From positions 1-38,385 of IMG/VR virus record IMGVR_UViG_3300033149_005501: a DNA stretch of 38,385 bases; one strand, written 5' to 3'. Below are positions 7,207-16,485 of the stretch, one piece after another. The DNA is from a virus. A program made the translations under genes and the position numbers. The notes beneath the pieces are model-generated. The model saw only the letters and a program-made list of their open reading frames with translations, ran no database searches and was not told the origin of the DNA. The stretch's first letter is position 1. Each line of letters starts with the position of its first letter.

Positions 7207-7596
7207 TTATTTTCCGTTTTCCTTTTTATCCGATGATTTGTCTACTTTTTCTTTTTCCTTTTCCTTTTCCTTTTTCTTAGCATCATTGAAAGCGGCAGTT
7301 ATTTTGTCGGCAATATCTGACATCTTTCTTGCCCCGGCATTATTTTCTCCACCCGCCTTCTTAAGTGTCTTAACTATTTTCATATATTTCTCTTCATCTT
7401 CATCCGACATTGCAGCAATTAATTGGCCAATCTTTATACAATCCGCGTCGGTCAGCTTATCATCCACGGGTTTTCCAATTAAGTTCTTAAGTTCTCCTTT
7501 TTCAAGAATAACATCTGCGCAATGCGCGGGGTCGAAAACAGGCGCATAGACATCAAGTTTTTCTCTAATCCTCTTCTTTATCTGCTCTACATTCAT
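7207..7596 (-). CDS. putative internal head protein with Lys/Glu-rich tail, 129 aa
   Basis: The start at ATG 7596 (MNVEQIKKRIREKLDVYAP) is preferred over 7674 because GAAGGAGA lies just upstream and the longer frame runs through the FmdB-type gene. The N-terminus is a basic amphipathic helix with I-R-E at 10-12. The middle is helical with two Cys. The C-terminal 30 residues are almost all Lys, Glu and Asp (KKKEKEKEKEKVDKSSDKKE), resembling the very charged tails of some phage core or internal proteins. No named family. Confidence 0.6.
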   Translation of the reverse strand: MNVEQIKKRIREKLDVYAPVFDPAHCADVILEKGELKNLIGKPVDDKLTDADCIKIGQLIAAMSDEDEEKYMKIVKTLKKAGGENNAGARKMSDIADKITAAFNDAKKKEKEKEKEKVDKSSDKKENGK

Positions 7597-7795
7597 TATC
7601 TTTCTCCTTCGACCTTTTATAGTCTGTCTGATAAAATCCACTACCTCTAAAGATAATACCGGCTGGGCATGCAATTAGCCGATGAAGGGCATCAGCATGA
7701 CACCGTGGGCATATGGTCAATCTTTCATCATACATAGATTGAACCACTTCAAATACATAACCACAATTATTACATTCATAATCATATGTAGGCAT
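7565..7795 (-). CDS. FmdB-family zinc ribbon protein, 76 aa
   Basis: The N-terminus MPTYDYECNNCGYVFEVVQS and the second pair CPRC (Cys 8, 11, 29, 32) are the signature of the FmdB/CxxC zinc ribbon family, which is widespread in bacteria and poorly understood (named after a putative regulator of formamidase genes). The Gly and Phe-rich stretch after the ribbon (IIFRGSGFYQTDYK) is also typical. The C-terminus is charged. It overlaps the following gene by 32 bases. In a phage it may be a small transcription-linked factor or a virion peptide; the family call is firm, the role is not. Confidence 0.85.
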   Translation of the reverse strand: MPTYDYECNNCGYVFEVVQSMYDERLTICPRCHADALHRLIACPAGIIFRGSGFYQTDYKRSKEKDNECRADKEED

Positions 7796-9477: not shown

Positions 9478-10611
9478 TTATTCACAACGCCAATAATCTA
9501 TTAGAAATCCCTGGTCATATCTTGGAATTTTCCCCCTAACCCCAATACCCCCAGGGTCGTGTTGTGATGTATCCGTTATCGATAACGTTACGCCTCTCCA
9601 GTTAGCCGATATCGTATTACCTGATATTGATATTGTTAATGTTCGCCATGTATTATCTGGGATCTGAACATCCCATTGAGAATCGGATAAAACAACTGCG
9701 CCGTTTTCATATTTGCCAAGAGCAGCTGACGTTCGGTTTCCCAAATCCAAACTTACTCTAAAATAATAATAATCCATAAATGTACTATCTTGCAATGCGA
9801 AATATATAAATAAATCGCTATCGCGTGAATATCCATATTCCATTGGATTACGGATATCAACCTTTAAATCGCCATCACTTGGTGTCCATATCAACGTTGG
9901 CGCATATGCCCGAACCATTATCGAATCGGTTGTGGGAGAGGGCGCTTCAAGATATCTTGAACCATCACTGGCCGTTAATGAGCTACCTAAACTCCAGCCT
10001 GCAGATTCTTTATCTCCAGTCCATTCAACACCATCATGGTATTCACCATACCAGGCCAGATCCCAGTACGTACTTCCCAATTCATAGCTTTCAGGTAATG
10101 AATATGTTGGATCTGTTGGTTCATCGGGGTTATCTACATCATCATATGGGAAGGTATGACCGGGTTCATCGGTAAATATAAATGACCATTGACCGGTGAC
10201 GGCGATTCCAGCAGTTTTATAAAATACCTCATTCGAATTAAGCGTATACCTGGAAAATAGTGTGCCATCTGAGAAATATAATCCAAACTCTTTTACCCAA
10301 GTATTTATGTGTTCATTTGGTGGTATTTGAAAATAAAATGTGCATGACCGTGGGTTTTTTATAAATTTTCTGGTATCTATCCTGTGTTTAGTAATATTTG
10401 ATCCACGCAATTCAGTCATTGAAATGTTTGTTGGGTTGTTATTATCACCCACTCCAAACGTAGATATACTTTCCGTACCAAATACAGATTGCCAGAATTT
10501 ATTAATACCACAGATCAATATTGTATTTGGTCGCTTTGATATATAATTAAACAATTTTCCATTTTTATATATATATAACTCAAGTGCACCAGAAACTAAA
10601 CCTGCAGCCAT
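9478..10611 (-). CDS. tail fibre or adhesin with lectin-like C-terminal domain, 377 aa
   Basis: Residues 25-145 are a beta-rich domain that includes KEFGLYFSDGTLFSRY. The equivalent in the fibre gene at 12533 reads AEIGLFSENDILFAR, so both share a virion-attachment domain. After a Pro/Asp linker (DDVDNPDEPTDPTYSLPES), residues 180-377 have alternating strands, many Trp and Tyr, and the profile of a concanavalin-like jelly roll, probably a glycan-binding receptor domain. AGAGAGAT precedes the ATG at 10611. It lies with the other host-contact genes. The fibre role is well supported; the ligand is unknown. Confidence 0.7.
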   Translation of the reverse strand: MAAGLVSGALELYIYKNGKLFNYISKRPNTILICGINKFWQSVFGTESISTFGVGDNNNPTNISMTELRGSNITKHRIDTRKFIKNPRSCTFYFQIPPNEHINTWVKEFGLYFSDGTLFSRYTLNSNEVFYKTAGIAVTGQWSFIFTDEPGHTFPYDDVDNPDEPTDPTYSLPESYELGSTYWDLAWYGEYHDGVEWTGDKESAGWSLGSSLTASDGSRYLEAPSPTTDSIMVRAYAPTLIWTPSDGDLKVDIRNPMEYGYSRDSDLFIYFALQDSTFMDYYYFRVSLDLGNRTSAALGKYENGAVVLSDSQWDVQIPDNTWRTLTISISGNTISANWRGVTLSITDTSQHDPGGIGVRGKIPRYDQGFLIDYWRCE

Positions 10612-10625
10612 ATTTATCTCTCTAA

Positions 10626-10829
10626 TTAAAAGCCTTGGCCATATGGACCCCTGCCGAATCCTCTGCCGAATCCTCTACCGAAGCCTCTACCAAGACCTCT
10701 ACCAAAACCGCGACTGAAACCTCTACCGAGTCCAGGACGCAATGTTGTGTTAGTCACGCGGCAGAAACCCATGCCGCGGCCAGTTCTTGGCCCTTGCCCG
10801 TTTGGCCCAGTTCCATCAAATGCTGGCAT
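10626..10829 (-). CDS. DUF5320-type Gly/Arg-rich small protein, 67 aa
   Basis: The N-terminus MPAFDGTGPNGQGPRTGRGM followed by GFC is the hallmark of the DUF5320 family, small proteins of unknown function found mainly in anaerobic bacteria and archaea. The second half is a tandem repeat of GRGF/GRGL units, making it extremely Arg, Gly and Phe-rich like RGG/FG-repeat sequences that bind RNA or condense. AAAGGAT lies before the ATG at 10829. It sits between a fibre gene and a glycosyltransferase gene. Its role in a phage is unknown. Confidence 0.75.
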   Translation of the reverse strand: MPAFDGTGPNGQGPRTGRGMGFCRVTNTTLRPGLGRGFSRGFGRGLGRGFGRGFGRGFGRGPYGQGF

Positions 10830-10833
10830 TGTA

Positions 10834-12021
10834 TTATCCTTTCTTTTCTATTATAGTTCTAGAAATAGTTGTTGCCTTAACAGCTTCAATAGGCATATTT
10901 TCTATAAGTTCATTTTCGGCTTCACTGCTCCATGGTCTATTAACACCCGCTCGAGCATTTTTTATAATCTTATCTTTTTCATTCTTCGATACTGCACGGG
11001 TTCGGTAGCAAAAGCCATGACACCACTTATTCCATGTCTTTGGCGAAAATATGCTTGACGTACCGAAAATGATATTCTTTATCTTCTCTTTATGCGCCGG
11101 ATACCGTTGCTTTTTAGGTCGTTTCTCATTTACAGGTCGATAATAATGTTGAGTTACACAATCCCTTGATACGTAAATTGGAATATTTAGCAACCAAGCC
11201 TTAATTGAAAATGGTTCTAGTAGGAATCCCCATCGCCCAACTGGAGTTTCCCATAAGCGCTTTGTTGGTGATTTGAGTTGTTTGATGGTATTGGCAGAAT
11301 ATGCATAAAATGCACCAAGTGGTACTTGAACCTTGCCCCACGGGCCGTCGGGGCCAATACCATTTTTCCACTTCGTTCCCATCCATTTAGCAGCAAATAA
11401 ATTATTATCAGATCGAACTAAATATGCCCCAAATTGTTTGAATTTGGAATTACTATTTAAATTAGTAGAACCAGAACAAACTACACAAGTCTCAGATAGT
11501 GCCTTATCAGATAAATATTCAATACTCCCTTCAGGAATTTGCATATGTGCATCGGCTACACCAACAACATCAGCGCCCAATTCTAGTGCCATATCCGTGG
11601 CCATGTTTATATTATAACCAATTCCCATTGGTTTTTTATTATGAATAACAATAATATTTTTGGCTATTTGATCTAAATCCTCTGCAGAGTCATCTGCAGA
11701 GGCATCATCTACAACTATACATCTAAAATCCAATAAGGGATCTACTATGGATTTATATAAACTATCAATAGTATTTATAAGCATTTCTCCTTCATTCCAC
11801 GAAGAAATTACCCAAACAACAGTAATAGGTTTAGCTGGTATCCATTTTGGTGGATCTGCCGGACAACACATATTTATTCGGCGCAATCTGGCGGTTCGTT
11901 CACATGGTGAACATTGCATAAGTGCGCATGTATTTTTATATTCACAATTATCACATATTTTTTGTCTACGAGGCAAAGTAGAATCAGAAAACCGACGCTT
12001 TATATTATCATATCGACCCAC
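10834..12021 (-). CDS. GT-A fold glycosyltransferase (family 2-like) with Cys-rich N-terminus, 395 aa
   Basis: Residues 66-170 form a GT-A nucleotide-sugar binding domain: a VVWVISSWNEGE first strand, VVDDAS at 103-108, and DAH at 157-159 as the metal-binding D-x-H. A C-terminal half with GRWGFLLEP (262-270) and H292-YYR matches the acceptor and metal part of GT2/GT27 enzymes. D-x-H plus this ending is typical of polypeptide GalNAc-transferases rather than the usual D-x-D. Residues 23-53 hold seven Cys, probably a metal site. The start is GTG 12021 after GAGGAG, overlapping the previous TAG. It is likely cytoplasmic, modifying a virion protein; the mucin-like fibre two genes upstream is the obvious candidate acceptor. 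Confidence 0.8.
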   Translation of the reverse strand: MGRYDNIKRRFSDSTLPRRQKICDNCEYKNTCALMQCSPCERTARLRRINMCCPADPPKWIPAKPITVVWVISSWNEGEMLINTIDSLYKSIVDPLLDFRCIVVDDASADDSAEDLDQIAKNIIVIHNKKPMGIGYNINMATDMALELGADVVGVADAHMQIPEGSIEYLSDKALSETCVVCSGSTNLNSNSKFKQFGAYLVRSDNNLFAAKWMGTKWKNGIGPDGPWGKVQVPLGAFYAYSANTIKQLKSPTKRLWETPVGRWGFLLEPFSIKAWLLNIPIYVSRDCVTQHYYRPVNEKRPKKQRYPAHKEKIKNIIFGTSSIFSPKTWNKWCHGFCYRTRAVSKNEKDKIIKNARAGVNRPWSSEAENELIENMPIEAVKATTISRTIIEKKG

Positions 12022-12518
12022 TATAAAGTCTCCTCATCTACGCGGCTTAGATTCTTTTTTTCTATAAGGGATTCGGCAGTTGGTATATCTATAGATTCAT
12101 TATAAACTAAGGAATCTATAAAACGAAGTGCGACTTCATCATCGGCAAACTTTTTAATATTATCTATGGCTATAGATACTTCTTCAGCCGATGGATGTTT
12201 GGCCTCTTTCTCATAATATCCTGCAATACACGAAGAATATGCTACTTGAAGAACATGCTTTTGTAATGCTTTATTTGTCATTACATTAGGTTCGCCATTA
12301 CACATACATACCTTACATGTATCAGCATCGACAGCCACACTTCGCCCACAGATGGCCGAAAGAACACCACATTCCGCAAAAGGTATACCAGATTTTTTTG
12401 TTGTAGCCTCTACGCCCCGCGCTGGGCAAGATGCTGGATTTTTTGATCTTATTTCTGCGGGCCCTGGCTTAATATAATTACTTTTCTCGCCCAACTCTTT
12501 GAAACTTATTGGTTTCAT
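12021..12518 (-). CDS. Cys-rich hypothetical protein, 165 aa
   Basis: The N-terminal half carries seven Cys within about 55 residues (SCPARG, AECG, AICG, DTCKVCMCNGEP), suggesting metal binding; an eighth Cys lies in the helical C-terminal half. The latter has DNIKKFADDEVALRFIDS and a basic end. AGAGGAG precedes the ATG at 12518. Its stop overlaps the GTG of the glycosyltransferase (TAGTG), so the two proteins are made together. With the Cys cluster in the transferase N-terminus, the two may form a complex acting on the fibre encoded just upstream. That is inference from context. Confidence 0.6.
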   Translation of the reverse strand: MKPISFKELGEKSNYIKPGPAEIRSKNPASCPARGVEATTKKSGIPFAECGVLSAICGRSVAVDADTCKVCMCNGEPNVMTNKALQKHVLQVAYSSCIAGYYEKEAKHPSAEEVSIAIDNIKKFADDEVALRFIDSLVYNESIDIPTAESLIEKKNLSRVDEETL

Positions 12519-12532
12519 ATATCATTCTCCTC

Positions 12533-13363
12533 TTATGCGGCTTGATATGGGATACAATCACTGCTATTATACATATATCTTGAATCTGGACTACATGTAT
12601 GAACGGGATCTGTTATCCTATCATAATGGCAACTGCCAGTTTTGGTGGCACATGCCGCTTCTTCGCCATCACTACAAGCCCTAATAACGGTGGACGCAGT
12701 ACCCGCTGCACAGATACAACAACCATTATTACAAGGCGGCGCAGAAAAGCCACTATCACAACAACATTCATCTGCAGCTGGATTATTGGTTGTTGTCGTT
12801 GGAGCTGCTGTAGTTGTCGTAGTTGGAGCTGCTGTAGTTGTCGTCGTTGGAGCTGCTGTAGTTGTTGTCGTTGGAGCTGCTGTAGTTGTTGTCGTTGGAG
12901 CTGCTGTAGTTGTCGTAGTTGGAGCTGCTGTAGTTGTCGTAGTTGGAGCCGCTGTAGTTGTCGTTGTCGTGCTTCCAATAAAGAAATCAAATTCCCATTC
13001 ATATTCTACATATGTTGCTCCCTTAATACCAGGGGCAACCACTGCACGGGCAAACAAAATATCATTTTCGGAAAACAGGCCGATTTCTGCTATAGTACCA
13101 TCTATCAATTCTGATTCATCTAAATGAAACTTAACTTTGGCGCGTGTATTGTTTATATATTCAATACTGTCAATGTTCTTAGTATATAGAACATTTCCCT
13201 CAAGCTTTTCGGGAGTTGCATTAGCCGCATTACTATCCCCGAATTTTACTTTGGTAACCTGATAATTTGTACTTAAACCTGCTAAATTATATAATATTAT
13301 ATCACCTACATATTTACCATATGCATTTAATATATTGCTATCTTTAAATTTCAATATGCCCAC
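12533..13363 (-). CDS. tail fibre with mucin-like Thr stalk and Cys-rich tip, 276 aa
   Basis: Three parts are visible. Residues 1-130 are a beta-rich attachment domain related to the N-terminal domain of the fibre at 9478. Residues 132-192 consist only of Thr, Ala and Pro in seven TTTTTAAP units, the composition of mucin-type O-glycosylated stalks. Residues 198-276 hold 12 Cys in 79 residues (starting ECCCDSG), surely disulfide-bonded or metal-bound, forming a compact tip. The start is GTG 13363 with AAGGAG at 6 bases. A glycosyltransferase is encoded two genes downstream. This architecture is unusual for a phage fibre; receptor binding by the tip is inferred. Confidence 0.75.
   Translation of the reverse strand: MGILKFKDSNILNAYGKYVGDIILYNLAGLSTNYQVTKVKFGDSNAANATPEKLEGNVLYTKNIDSIEYINNTRAKVKFHLDESELIDGTIAEIGLFSENDILFARAVVAPGIKGATYVEYEWEFDFFIGSTTTTTTAAPTTTTTAAPTTTTTAAPTTTTTAAPTTTTTAAPTTTTTAAPTTTTTAAPTTTTNNPAADECCCDSGFSAPPCNNGCCICAAGTASTVIRACSDGEEAACATKTGSCHYDRITDPVHTCSPDSRYMYNSSDCIPYQAA
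12788..12970 (-). repeat. 24-bp tandem repeat encoding TTTTTAAP
   Basis: Seven units of 24 bp in frame encode TTTTTAAP, with silent variation mainly in the third base of the Thr codons. Tandem repeats of this sort can change copy number by slippage in steps of eight residues without disturbing the frame, altering stalk length. Confidence 0.95.
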
Positions 13364-13366
13364 AAA

Positions 13367-16300
13367 CTACTCCTTATATATATATGTTTCGCCAGTCCGA
13401 ATATTAACTATCCAAATATACCAAGTATTATGCATCCAGAACCGTCGTGCAACATGATCGAGATTATATGATATTGGCATTATTCCATGAGCTTCCATTT
13501 TGCTCTGGTAATCTCTAATTATCGGAACTATACGTTGTTCATATGAAAATAGATTTCCAGTCTGGGGGTCTTCTGCTAATGGAACCTGTGATAAGCTGGC
13601 TGTTGGATATCGAGGATATCCTCTTGGTAGAAAATCATATGACTGTTCACCATCTCCCGTCCAATACCACCGACCGCTAAGAAATAAGTTTTCATAATTA
13701 TTTAATTCATCCGCCTCGCCCTTAATCCAATCAGGGATATATGATGCAACACCATCGCCTTCTTCCGTCATTATGGTTCCACCATTAGAAACATAATCTT
13801 GCAATATGGTTTGCTGATCTTCTGTTAGATAACTAAGAGTTGTATAGTTTGCCCTTGGTATTACAAGTACAGTATAGTTGTTAAGCTTGGTCGCTAAATC
13901 CCCAATCCTTATTATATCAAAATCGACGTTGGATCGACACATCATTTCATAAATCACCCTATTATATGCCCCATTCATTGGATCAAATCTAAGCAATGCT
14001 ACCTTCGGTTGTTCAGCACGGGCTGTAGGTGATATATCTAAATCAGTAATGGCCTCATATGCATCATCGACTATAGGTAATAATCTATCAATATCACTAT
14101 ATTTATCCAGTCCCCAATGCAATCCGGTAAATTTATTGAGGGTAAACATACCAACAAGTGCAACCGAAGCCCTAATATTTGCCTCGGTTTCATATTGATA
14201 TTCTGTATTATATGTTCTATTTACCAATTGACATCCAGCATATATTCGAGTTTTGCCTGCCGCCTGCATTTCCTTTACCCGCGCTACAATTGTATATAGA
14301 CGTCTATTCAATGATCCTGTAGAATCATTTCCAGCAACTCGACACCATATATAACCAGCCTCATGGTAAAGCGGATCTGGGTCATTGATAAAATATGTTT
14401 GTGGAACTTCCGGTAGTACTTTTATAACCGAGTCTGGAATTCGTAGGGCATATGCTTCATAAACGGTATCATCTTTTGGATTTTCAGAATCCGCCATAAA
14501 TAATGTTGGCCAATCATTATCATCAATTTGCTCCAATGATTCCGGAGTAGTATATTCCGTTTGAATATATGAATGAAAATCTATACCGGTTTCATTTGCT
14601 ATTTGTTTAAATGTATGCATCATTTGCCTAATTCTATGTGAATCAAACCAATGTGGCCATCCAGGCGATACAAAGGAAACATTTGTATCATTGGCTAACT
14701 TGGTCATCGCGGTTCTTATTTGAGATATATTAGCACTATCACTATTATCAGGTTCAGCAGGAATTTGCCATAAACCATACGTAACTGTTATAGTATCTAG
14801 ATATAATCCAAATGAATCACCAATGCTTATTGTACTATTTTCTGAAACTTTAGTAGCATTAAATTCAAAATCATCGAAAACCTCTATAGTTTCCAACCAA
14901 TTCTGTATTAAGTTAGTTGCTCCAACCGAAATAGAATCGGTCATGGAAATGCTTTCACCAAATATTAAATATACATTTTCAAAGACCGATAGCGTTACGG
15001 TATCGTTTATTGAAATATCTTCGGTTCCTATATATTTGAATGTTGCCGTTAGGGATTCAGATAGATCGTCTTCATAAATTATATCTATAGGCTGAAAATT
15101 TTCGGTTCCAATCTTGAATGTACTTATATCTATCCTATGCCAATCGGTATAAGCTGGTTTAACGGAATCAACATAGCGATCAAGGATATCATGAATGTTT
15201 TGTATAGATGCGGTTTCGGTTAAATTAGAAGCATCTATTTCTGCTATAAATTTATTTGATTTTAATGGTGGAGTATGTCCATAGAAAATAAAATCATCTA
15301 TGGAATATAATTTTTGTATTGTAGCCGAACTACCAACCGTTGTAATTCGGTTATCAATATATATTGTATTATTTACATCTATTAATGACGATGTTACAAT
15401 ATTTTCAGTAACATGATTATATTCTGAAGGAGAAAAGAAAGAAGTTATATCATATCCAAGTAAATCCCTATACAATGAATAATATGAATATATGTCATCA
15501 TCATCTAATCCTGTATTAAAATTCCCACCATAATATCCCCATATATAATTATGTGTAGGTGATAGATTTGGCACCCTAACAAAGAATTTTTGTGAAGATT
15601 CTGTAGTTACCAAATATGGTAAATAACTATAACTACCTCGCTCTTTTACAAATCTAACATTTGTCCCATCTAAAAATTTGAATGAATCTACATCTGACAT
15701 ATCAACATATACCAAACTATCATCTACTTCGGTTGATGGCATACCAATATCAAATTGCTGACAATATGCAAATAATCCATGGTTTAACCCATCATTGGTT
15801 GAATCGGTAGAAATTTCCCCCGATACCGAACTGGCAGGAGTATATAATGTTCCTTGAAGTAATATATCTTCTGGTAAATTACCATGCCCTAATATCAAGG
15901 CCCCCTGGTATACATTATAGAAAGAACCATTTATTCTTTCAGTTATATATTTCGAATCCGCCATCATAATATTACTAAGATATGTAGCATATTGGTAGTT
16001 GGTTTCTAGTAATGCACCAAGAGATGGCTTTATTGTAAATACATCAGATGATACTATGGTACCATCTACAATTAACGAACAGGTATAATTATTAAACGCA
16101 TTACCTGACGTTGCAGATATGGTCGTAAGACGACCATTAAACCCAATTGTATGAACATCTAGATCTGACAACCCAACTGCTGATGCTGATATAGATGGTG
16201 ATTCTGTTAGAATATTGCTATACACTGGTAATTCAACTTTAAGTGCATCATCGCTTGGCCGATAGTATACACCTAATACCGAACCAAAGCTATAGAGTTC

Positions 16301-16465
16301 TTGCCAATCGGCTATAGACACGTCATGAGATGATAATTGTAATTCATCTGAAAACATTAAATTAACATCATCAAATGTCGTTTCATATGATGTTAATGAT
16401 TTATTCACCAAATCTACAGCTACATCATGTGACCATGCATCTCCTGTTATAAACGGTGTGACCAT
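13367..16465 (-). CDS. large tail spike/fibre with glycoside-hydrolase-like C-terminal half, 1032 aa
   Basis: The N-terminal 560 residues are beta-rich and Ser/Thr/Tyr-rich, as in spike shafts. From about 575 to 825 the sequence looks like a TIM-barrel enzyme region (GWPHWFDSHRIRQMMHTFKQ, then FTGLHWGLDKY). Residues 840-935 resemble the GATase-like domain that follows the barrel in family 42-type glycosidases (VLVIPRANYTTLSYLTEDQQ followed by DYVSNGGTIM). This points to a polysaccharide-degrading spike. The ATG at 16465 has AGGAG four bases upstream, inside the 29-bp duplication. The gene is very probably the separated 3' part of a longer ORF that included 16447-17718. Enzyme class is tentative. 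Confidence 0.65.
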   Translation of the reverse strand: MVTPFITGDAWSHDVAVDLVNKSLTSYETTFDDVNLMFSDELQLSSHDVSIADWQELYSFGSVLGVYYRPSDDALKVELPVYSNILTESPSISASAVGLSDLDVHTIGFNGRLTTISATSGNAFNNYTCSLIVDGTIVSSDVFTIKPSLGALLETNYQYATYLSNIMMADSKYITERINGSFYNVYQGALILGHGNLPEDILLQGTLYTPASSVSGEISTDSTNDGLNHGLFAYCQQFDIGMPSTEVDDSLVYVDMSDVDSFKFLDGTNVRFVKERGSYSYLPYLVTTESSQKFFVRVPNLSPTHNYIWGYYGGNFNTGLDDDDIYSYYSLYRDLLGYDITSFFSPSEYNHVTENIVTSSLIDVNNTIYIDNRITTVGSSATIQKLYSIDDFIFYGHTPPLKSNKFIAEIDASNLTETASIQNIHDILDRYVDSVKPAYTDWHRIDISTFKIGTENFQPIDIIYEDDLSESLTATFKYIGTEDISINDTVTLSVFENVYLIFGESISMTDSISVGATNLIQNWLETIEVFDDFEFNATKVSENSTISIGDSFGLYLDTITVTYGLWQIPAEPDNSDSANISQIRTAMTKLANDTNVSFVSPGWPHWFDSHRIRQMMHTFKQIANETGIDFHSYIQTEYTTPESLEQIDDNDWPTLFMADSENPKDDTVYEAYALRIPDSVIKVLPEVPQTYFINDPDPLYHEAGYIWCRVAGNDSTGSLNRRLYTIVARVKEMQAAGKTRIYAGCQLVNRTYNTEYQYETEANIRASVALVGMFTLNKFTGLHWGLDKYSDIDRLLPIVDDAYEAITDLDISPTARAEQPKVALLRFDPMNGAYNRVIYEMMCRSNVDFDIIRIGDLATKLNNYTVLVIPRANYTTLSYLTEDQQTILQDYVSNGGTIMTEEGDGVASYIPDWIKGEADELNNYENLFLSGRWYWTGDGEQSYDFLPRGYPRYPTASLSQVPLAEDPQTGNLFSYEQRIVPIIRDYQSKMEAHGIMPISYNLDHVARRFWMHNTWYIWIVNIRTGETYIYKE

Positions 16466-16485
16466 GCATCTCCTGTTATAAACGG
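16428..16485. repeat. perfect 29-bp tandem duplication splitting a gene
   Basis: The 29 bases at 16428-16456 are repeated exactly at 16457-16485. Because 29 is not a multiple of three, the upstream ORF is thrown out of frame and stops (TAA, 16447-16449), while the downstream ORF begins in the same segment. Both ORFs encode FITGDAWSH from the two copies. The stretch 13367-17718 minus 29 bases is 4323 bases, exactly 1441 codons. Confidence 0.95.

Follow-up and report, generated by a model that had tools for sequence, protein, structure and literature searches.

A threonine-repeat tail fibre beside a DxH-motif glycosyltransferase in a T4-superfamily myovirus, and a GT27-like transferase family in uncultured phages

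A tail-fibre operon with a threonine repeat and a transferase

Virus record IMGVR_UViG_3300033149_005501 is a 38,385-base IMG/VR fragment of a T4-superfamily myovirus, analysed here over its full length (the window). Its portal shares about 32 percent identity with cyanophage gp20, and it also encodes sheath, tube, baseplate wedge, major head protein, scaffold and prohead protease. In its tail-fibre region, the genes for a threonine-repeat fibre, a 165-aa protein and a glycosyltransferase lie contiguously on the minus strand, where the full order is 1032-aa tail protein, repeat fibre, 165-aa protein, transferase, DUF5320 protein and 377-aa fibre-like protein. An earlier note on this DNA described the three genes as consecutive, overlapping or nearly touching, and the gaps bear this out: 3 nt between the tail gene and the fibre, 14 nt between the fibre and the 165-aa gene and -1 nt between the latter and the transferase (a TAG/GTG overlap), followed by 4 nt to the DUF5320 gene and 14 nt from there to the 377-aa gene. 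Plausible ribosome-binding sites are present in the operon, whose features are as follows.

12533..13363, minus strand: tail-fibre-like protein, 276 aa, with an N-terminal domain, a Thr-repeat stalk and a Cys-rich tip (phrog_5417, E 3.9e-6)
12800..12967, minus strand: seven exact TTTTTAAP units, residues 133-188 (seen directly); proposed O-glycan acceptor stalk
12536..12796, minus strand: fibre tip at the C-terminus, with 12 Cys among 87 residues (residue count)
12021..12518, minus strand: 165-aa protein, 7 Cys, 4 percent (open reading frame and residue count)
10834..12021, minus strand: GT2-like glycosyltransferase, 395 aa, without a transmembrane segment (PF00535, E 1.3e-16)
11863..11955, minus strand: Cys cluster, 7 Cys within residues 23-53, ahead of the transferase domain; by eye, perhaps a zinc ribbon
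11464..11814, minus strand: GT-A nucleotide-sugar half, residues 70-186 (PF00535; pLDDT mostly 73-90, the best part of the model)
11545..11553, minus strand: DAH metal motif where DxD is expected, residues 157-159, aligning with the D-C-H of the phage DxH family described below
11137..11148, minus strand: HYYR, residues 292-295; compared by eye with GT27, it may supply a third metal ligand and the Arg
10626..10829, minus strand: DUF5320 Gly/Arg-repeat protein, the gene after the transferase (PF17253, E 4.8e-11), tied to the other genes by position
9478..10611, minus strand: second fibre-like protein, 377 aa, with the N-terminal domain of the repeat fibre (phrog_5417 and a tail-fibre phrog)

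The fibre gene starts with GTG, preceded by AAGGAG. As both fibre-like proteins carry the same N-terminal domain, the repeat fibre probably attaches to the tail as the 377-aa protein does. The seven repeat units and the 12 cysteines in the last 87 residues are exactly those that had been described earlier, and the fibre as a whole contains 4.3 percent Cys. At the DNA level the repeat is a 24-bp tandem array (12789-12964, 7.3 copies, TRF score 303) whose seven TTTTTAAP copies differ by synonymous third-position changes only, which indicates that the repeat is conserved as protein and not only as DNA. The repeat alone is not rare among uncultured phages, as a degenerate DNA search found at least two TTTTTAAP units in 68 viral-contig stretches.

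The protein encoded between fibre and transferase had been called Cys-rich and cast as a partner in glycosylation. It does adjoin both genes, but with 7 Cys it is only moderately Cys-rich, and the partner role found no support. Searches of Pfam and NCBIfam gave no match, one marginal phrog of unknown function was hit, and a search for relatives found none.

The transferase matches PF00535 at 61.5 bits, against a curated cut-off of 23.3, and is thus a GT2-type match. DDAS lies at residue 105, DAH at 157 and QHYYR at 291, so that the reading of a GT-A enzyme with DDAS, DAH and a final H-x-YR stood. Its highest 19-residue hydropathy mean is 1.22, which argues that it lacks membrane helices, unlike GtrB and ArnC. 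Among the window open reading frames scanned, there was no other Pfam glycan-synthesis gene, and no base-modification gene was recognised.

Three further observations concern the surrounding genes. The 1032-aa tail protein (13367-16465) shows weak similarity to Glyco_hydro_42M and other glycosidase domains of this kind and is possibly a glycosidase-like tail spike. Where it meets the 423-aa tail gene lies a perfect 29-bp tandem duplication (16428-16485), and PFITGDAWSH is common to the end of the 423-aa gene and the start of the 1032-aa gene, from which it seems that a frame-shifting duplication split a single long tail gene into these two. By eye, a small protein at 7565-7795 (MPTYDYECNNCGY), within a late phage gene cluster, contains what looks like a zinc ribbon of the FmdB-like type.

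DxH transferases beside threonine-rich proteins in uncultured phages

PF00535 genes were sought in viral records holding TTTTTAAP repeats. Three of these records, independent of one another, place the repeat gene immediately next to a transferase with D-C-H in place of DxD, and these enzymes share a C-terminal part, GGEE...HRFGRP. Using the alignment of the three as a query, we retrieved 46 viral and 65 bacterial loci, which define a D-[CS]-H transferase family with members from uncultured phages (L086-L131) and from bacteria (L132-L196), hereafter the phage DxH family. No member was found in isolate phages; BFVD holds one uncultured Caudovirales protein with 28 percent identity to the family.

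Viral loci usually have a Thr-rich frame on the same strand as the transferase frame, a few to about 130 bases away from it. Counting as neighbours frames with at least 12 Thr in 24 residues, on the same strand and at most 450 nt from the transferase, and after removing redundant transferases, we found such a neighbour in 29 of 34 viral DxH loci and in 1 of 59 control loci, the control being a DxD phage transferase family retrieved by the same procedure. The Fisher p of 7e-18 for this comparison is not a true probability, as the loci are related and not independent; the DxH seeds came from Thr-repeat contigs, as did the control seeds. When a Thr-rich frame anywhere in the locus (within about 6 kb) is counted, the numbers become 30/34 and 17/59. 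The refuting observation named in the earlier note, homologues without Thr-repeat fibres, does not bear on the window enzyme, for which no homologues were found. In the DxH family, the neighbour is absent from 5 of the 34 viral loci and from 54 of 64 bacterial ones (present in 10/64). The Thr-rich neighbours are also rich in cysteine, with a median of 7.6 percent, as compared with 1.2 for Thr-rich frames of TTTTTAAP contigs generally and 1.6 for other frames; the 4.3 percent of the window fibre places it within the range of these proteins.

In a tree of 77 members (scored with a slightly laxer cut-off of 46 percent Thr), most phage members cluster together and hold most of the Thr-rich neighbours, the others being scattered in bacterial branches, and the association requires at least 10 changes of state. 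The genes around DxH loci include head, virion-structural, tail-fibre and tail-tip families, which marks these loci as virion regions. In the reverse direction, a family member lies near the repeat in only three independent TTTTTAAP contigs, so that Thr stalks mostly occur without such an enzyme. Among the loci collected, no DxH enzyme from outside the family was found beside other Thr-rich frames, the single match being a family member.

The predicted fold of the family points to GT27. The AlphaFold model of a DxH-family enzyme has a pLDDT of 94, and its best 50 PDB chains in Foldseek are all polypeptide GalNAc-transferases. By VIA, it matches GalNAc-T2 at Z 24.3 over 262 residues and GalNAc-transferases at Z 20-24, with the first other glycosyltransferase families appearing at Z 20 or below. 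The family profile matches GalNAc-T10 (E 2e-6) across the DxH, GGE and final His; it matches TarP equally highly, though over the nucleotide half alone. On the strength of the modelled fold and the GalNAc-T10 match, we regard the phage DxH family as GT27-like, its predicted fold being closest to polypeptide GalNAc-transferases.

Several side observations emerged from these loci. The bacterial DxH transferase at L132:6563-7483 adjoins a PqqD-domain protein whose tail is Thr-rich, which may point to a pathway for a glycosylated peptide. Directly after the TTTTTAAP gene, L005:3273-3464 and L052:3740-3931 encode a DUF6171-like zinc ribbon of 64 aa, and several of the phage DxH transferases end in the same module. 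In a set of related contigs (L050, L051, L064, L032, L057 and L070), a different transferase with a DDDD motif lies about 2.7-3.3 kb from the TTTTTAAP repeats.

Placement of the window transferase

The window enzyme shares several traits with this family, namely the DxH motif, a location in a virion gene region and a Thr-rich, Cys-rich neighbour on the same strand, here the fibre encoded two genes upstream at about 0.5 kb. It differs in lacking the GGEE and HRF.RP motifs and in carrying its Cys module at the N-terminus, whereas that of the phage DxH enzymes is C-terminal. We considered whether this N-terminal cluster is a DUF6171-like zinc ribbon (CxxC..CxxC..CP..W of phage transferases); the two are alike by eye, but there was no HMM match and the assignment was dropped.

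Membership of the family itself is not supported. The DxH-family profile scores the window transferase at 9.9 bits, level with the DxD background (best control 9.5; another frame in L232 reaches 11.9), hhalign gives a probability of 35 percent over the nucleotide half only, and identity to the family is about 17 percent. Searches with the full-length protein and with the C-terminal half alone found no relatives in viral contigs, nor were any found in bacterial genome contigs; isolate phages yielded none up to E 10, save a single 58-residue chance match, and 14 bacterial genomes showed no similarity outside the GT2 half. At the search sensitivity used, the enzyme is an orphan. Its weak matches are to the GtrB-like phrog_841 (E 2e-6), PgaC and ArnC-type models.

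The window model is too poor overall (pLDDT 58) to decide on the fold, and its best matches are mixed (TarP, RmlT, GtrB, ArnC, WrtF and GalNAc-T2), with GalNAc-T2, GtrB, ArnC, WrtF and 6p61 tied at Z of about 11-12. The longest alignment, 222-233 residues, is with GalNAc-T2, although the alignment behind the model included GT27-like DxH-family relatives and may bias it in this direction. A ricin-type C-terminal lectin domain is usual in GT27. The window enzyme has no Pfam match to one at its C-terminus and belongs to a prokaryotic virus without a secretory pathway; what it shares with GT27 is the D-x-H metal motif, a late H-x-x-R and a Thr/Pro/Ala-rich candidate acceptor next door. With TarP, RmlT and GtrB/ArnC, which act on polymer or lipid acceptors, it has in common the GT-A nucleotide half and weak similarity in sequence and fold.

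The earlier note had read the enzyme as GT27-type. The DAH motif does occupy the DxD position, but neither profile nor fold separates the protein from ordinary GT2 enzymes, and the comparison with GT27 and GT2 structures favours GT27 for the DxH family while leaving the window model tied. We file it as a GT2 enzyme with a DxH motif that may function like the DxH cassettes rather than as a proven member of them. The broader idea, of a phage that pairs a Thr-rich virion protein with a GT27-like DxH enzyme, finds its support in the separate phage family and not in a closeness of the window enzyme to GT27. Because that family pairs Thr-rich proteins with a GalNAc-transferase-like enzyme, the window most likely carries a mucin-like cassette for virion O-glycosylation, in a version that is either divergent or convergent.

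Candidate acceptors and wider meaning

The best explanation for the locus, to which we give somewhat better than an even chance, is that the transferase O-glycosylates threonines of the TTTTTAAP stalk of the neighbouring fibre. A soluble, metal-dependent GT-A enzyme (10834-12021), produced late alongside the tail genes, would add sugar to the stalk of this fibre, whose gene lies shortly upstream, either ahead of tail assembly or in the course of it. With dense O-glycans, the stalk would become a stiffer spacer that separates the tail-anchored N-terminal domain from a disulfide-rich tip, and would be protected against proteases or binding proteins. It is inferred that the enzyme acts on this fibre, and so are the residues it modifies, the sugar it adds and the advantage gained.

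Another virion protein, such as the 377-aa fibre, the sheath or the capsid, might be the target instead, with the Thr stalk serving as a flexible, unmodified linker. We hold this to be unlikely. In its favour, Thr-rich frames are common in the wider control loci, and most of the 68 repeat stretches lack an adjoining DxH transferase. Known phage virion glycosylation also concerns capsid and tail tube (PMC12363180, PMC12619734). What speaks for the stalk is direct adjacency, nearly absent from the control and prevalent in the DxH family. An enzyme that modifies the host surface, by glycosylating O-antigen or teichoic acid for superinfection exclusion, and that sits among the tail genes by chance, is less probable still. 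The weak GtrB-like phrog_841, PgaC and ArnC-type matches and the structural matches to TarP, RmlT and GtrB suggest it, but all are confined to the common nucleotide half, the lack of a transmembrane segment argues against a lipid-linked enzyme of the GtrB/ArnC type, neither a flippase nor a GtrA-like partner was noticed, and the gene sits within a late tail operon.

Two further readings we hold to be highly improbable. The orphan sequence without close relatives could be that of a decayed, inactive enzyme with no role, against which stand the intact 395-aa frame, its ribosome-binding site, translational coupling and the retained GT-A motifs. Lowest of all we place glycosylation of modified bases in the phage DNA; T4-superfamily phages often glycosylate their DNA and the window is only part of the genome, but the gene lies among fibre genes and the window frames scanned contain no recognised base-modification gene.

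Glycosylation of phage virions as such is already known, and the earlier statement that no phage system of this design had been described was too strong. In mycobacteriophages (Che8 gp110, Corndog gp38, Myrna), phage-encoded transferases are reported to modify the phage's own capsid and tail tube (Freeman 2023, as cited in PMC12363180 and PMC12619734), which resembles the stalk-glycosylation reading; the acceptors given in the available parts of these two sources are capsid and tail-tube C-termini, and a Thr-repeat fibre stalk goes unmentioned there. In the open-access literature, nothing relevant was found on Thr-rich phage proteins with transferases, on prokaryotic GT27 or on phage GT27-like enzymes, and the pairing of a Thr-rich protein with a DxH transferase is without a description found there.

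Uncultured phages probably sugar-coat Thr-rich virion proteins encoded beside DxH transferases. That they widely encode mucin-type O-glycosylation cassettes, with the window as an independent version built on another DxH transferase and the design having arisen more than once, is a tentative proposal that we rate a little short of even. The wider DxH cassette family is a more valuable result than the window cassette.

Mucin-type O-glycosylation by GT27 enzymes is generally considered a trait of eukaryotes. If the reading is true, a prokaryotic and viral family with the GT27 fold and motif, encoded beside Thr-rich proteins, would be its bacterial or phage counterpart, and the phage DxH enzymes may be a source of soluble O-glycosylation tools. 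It would also explain why Thr-rich stalks are common among uncultured phages.
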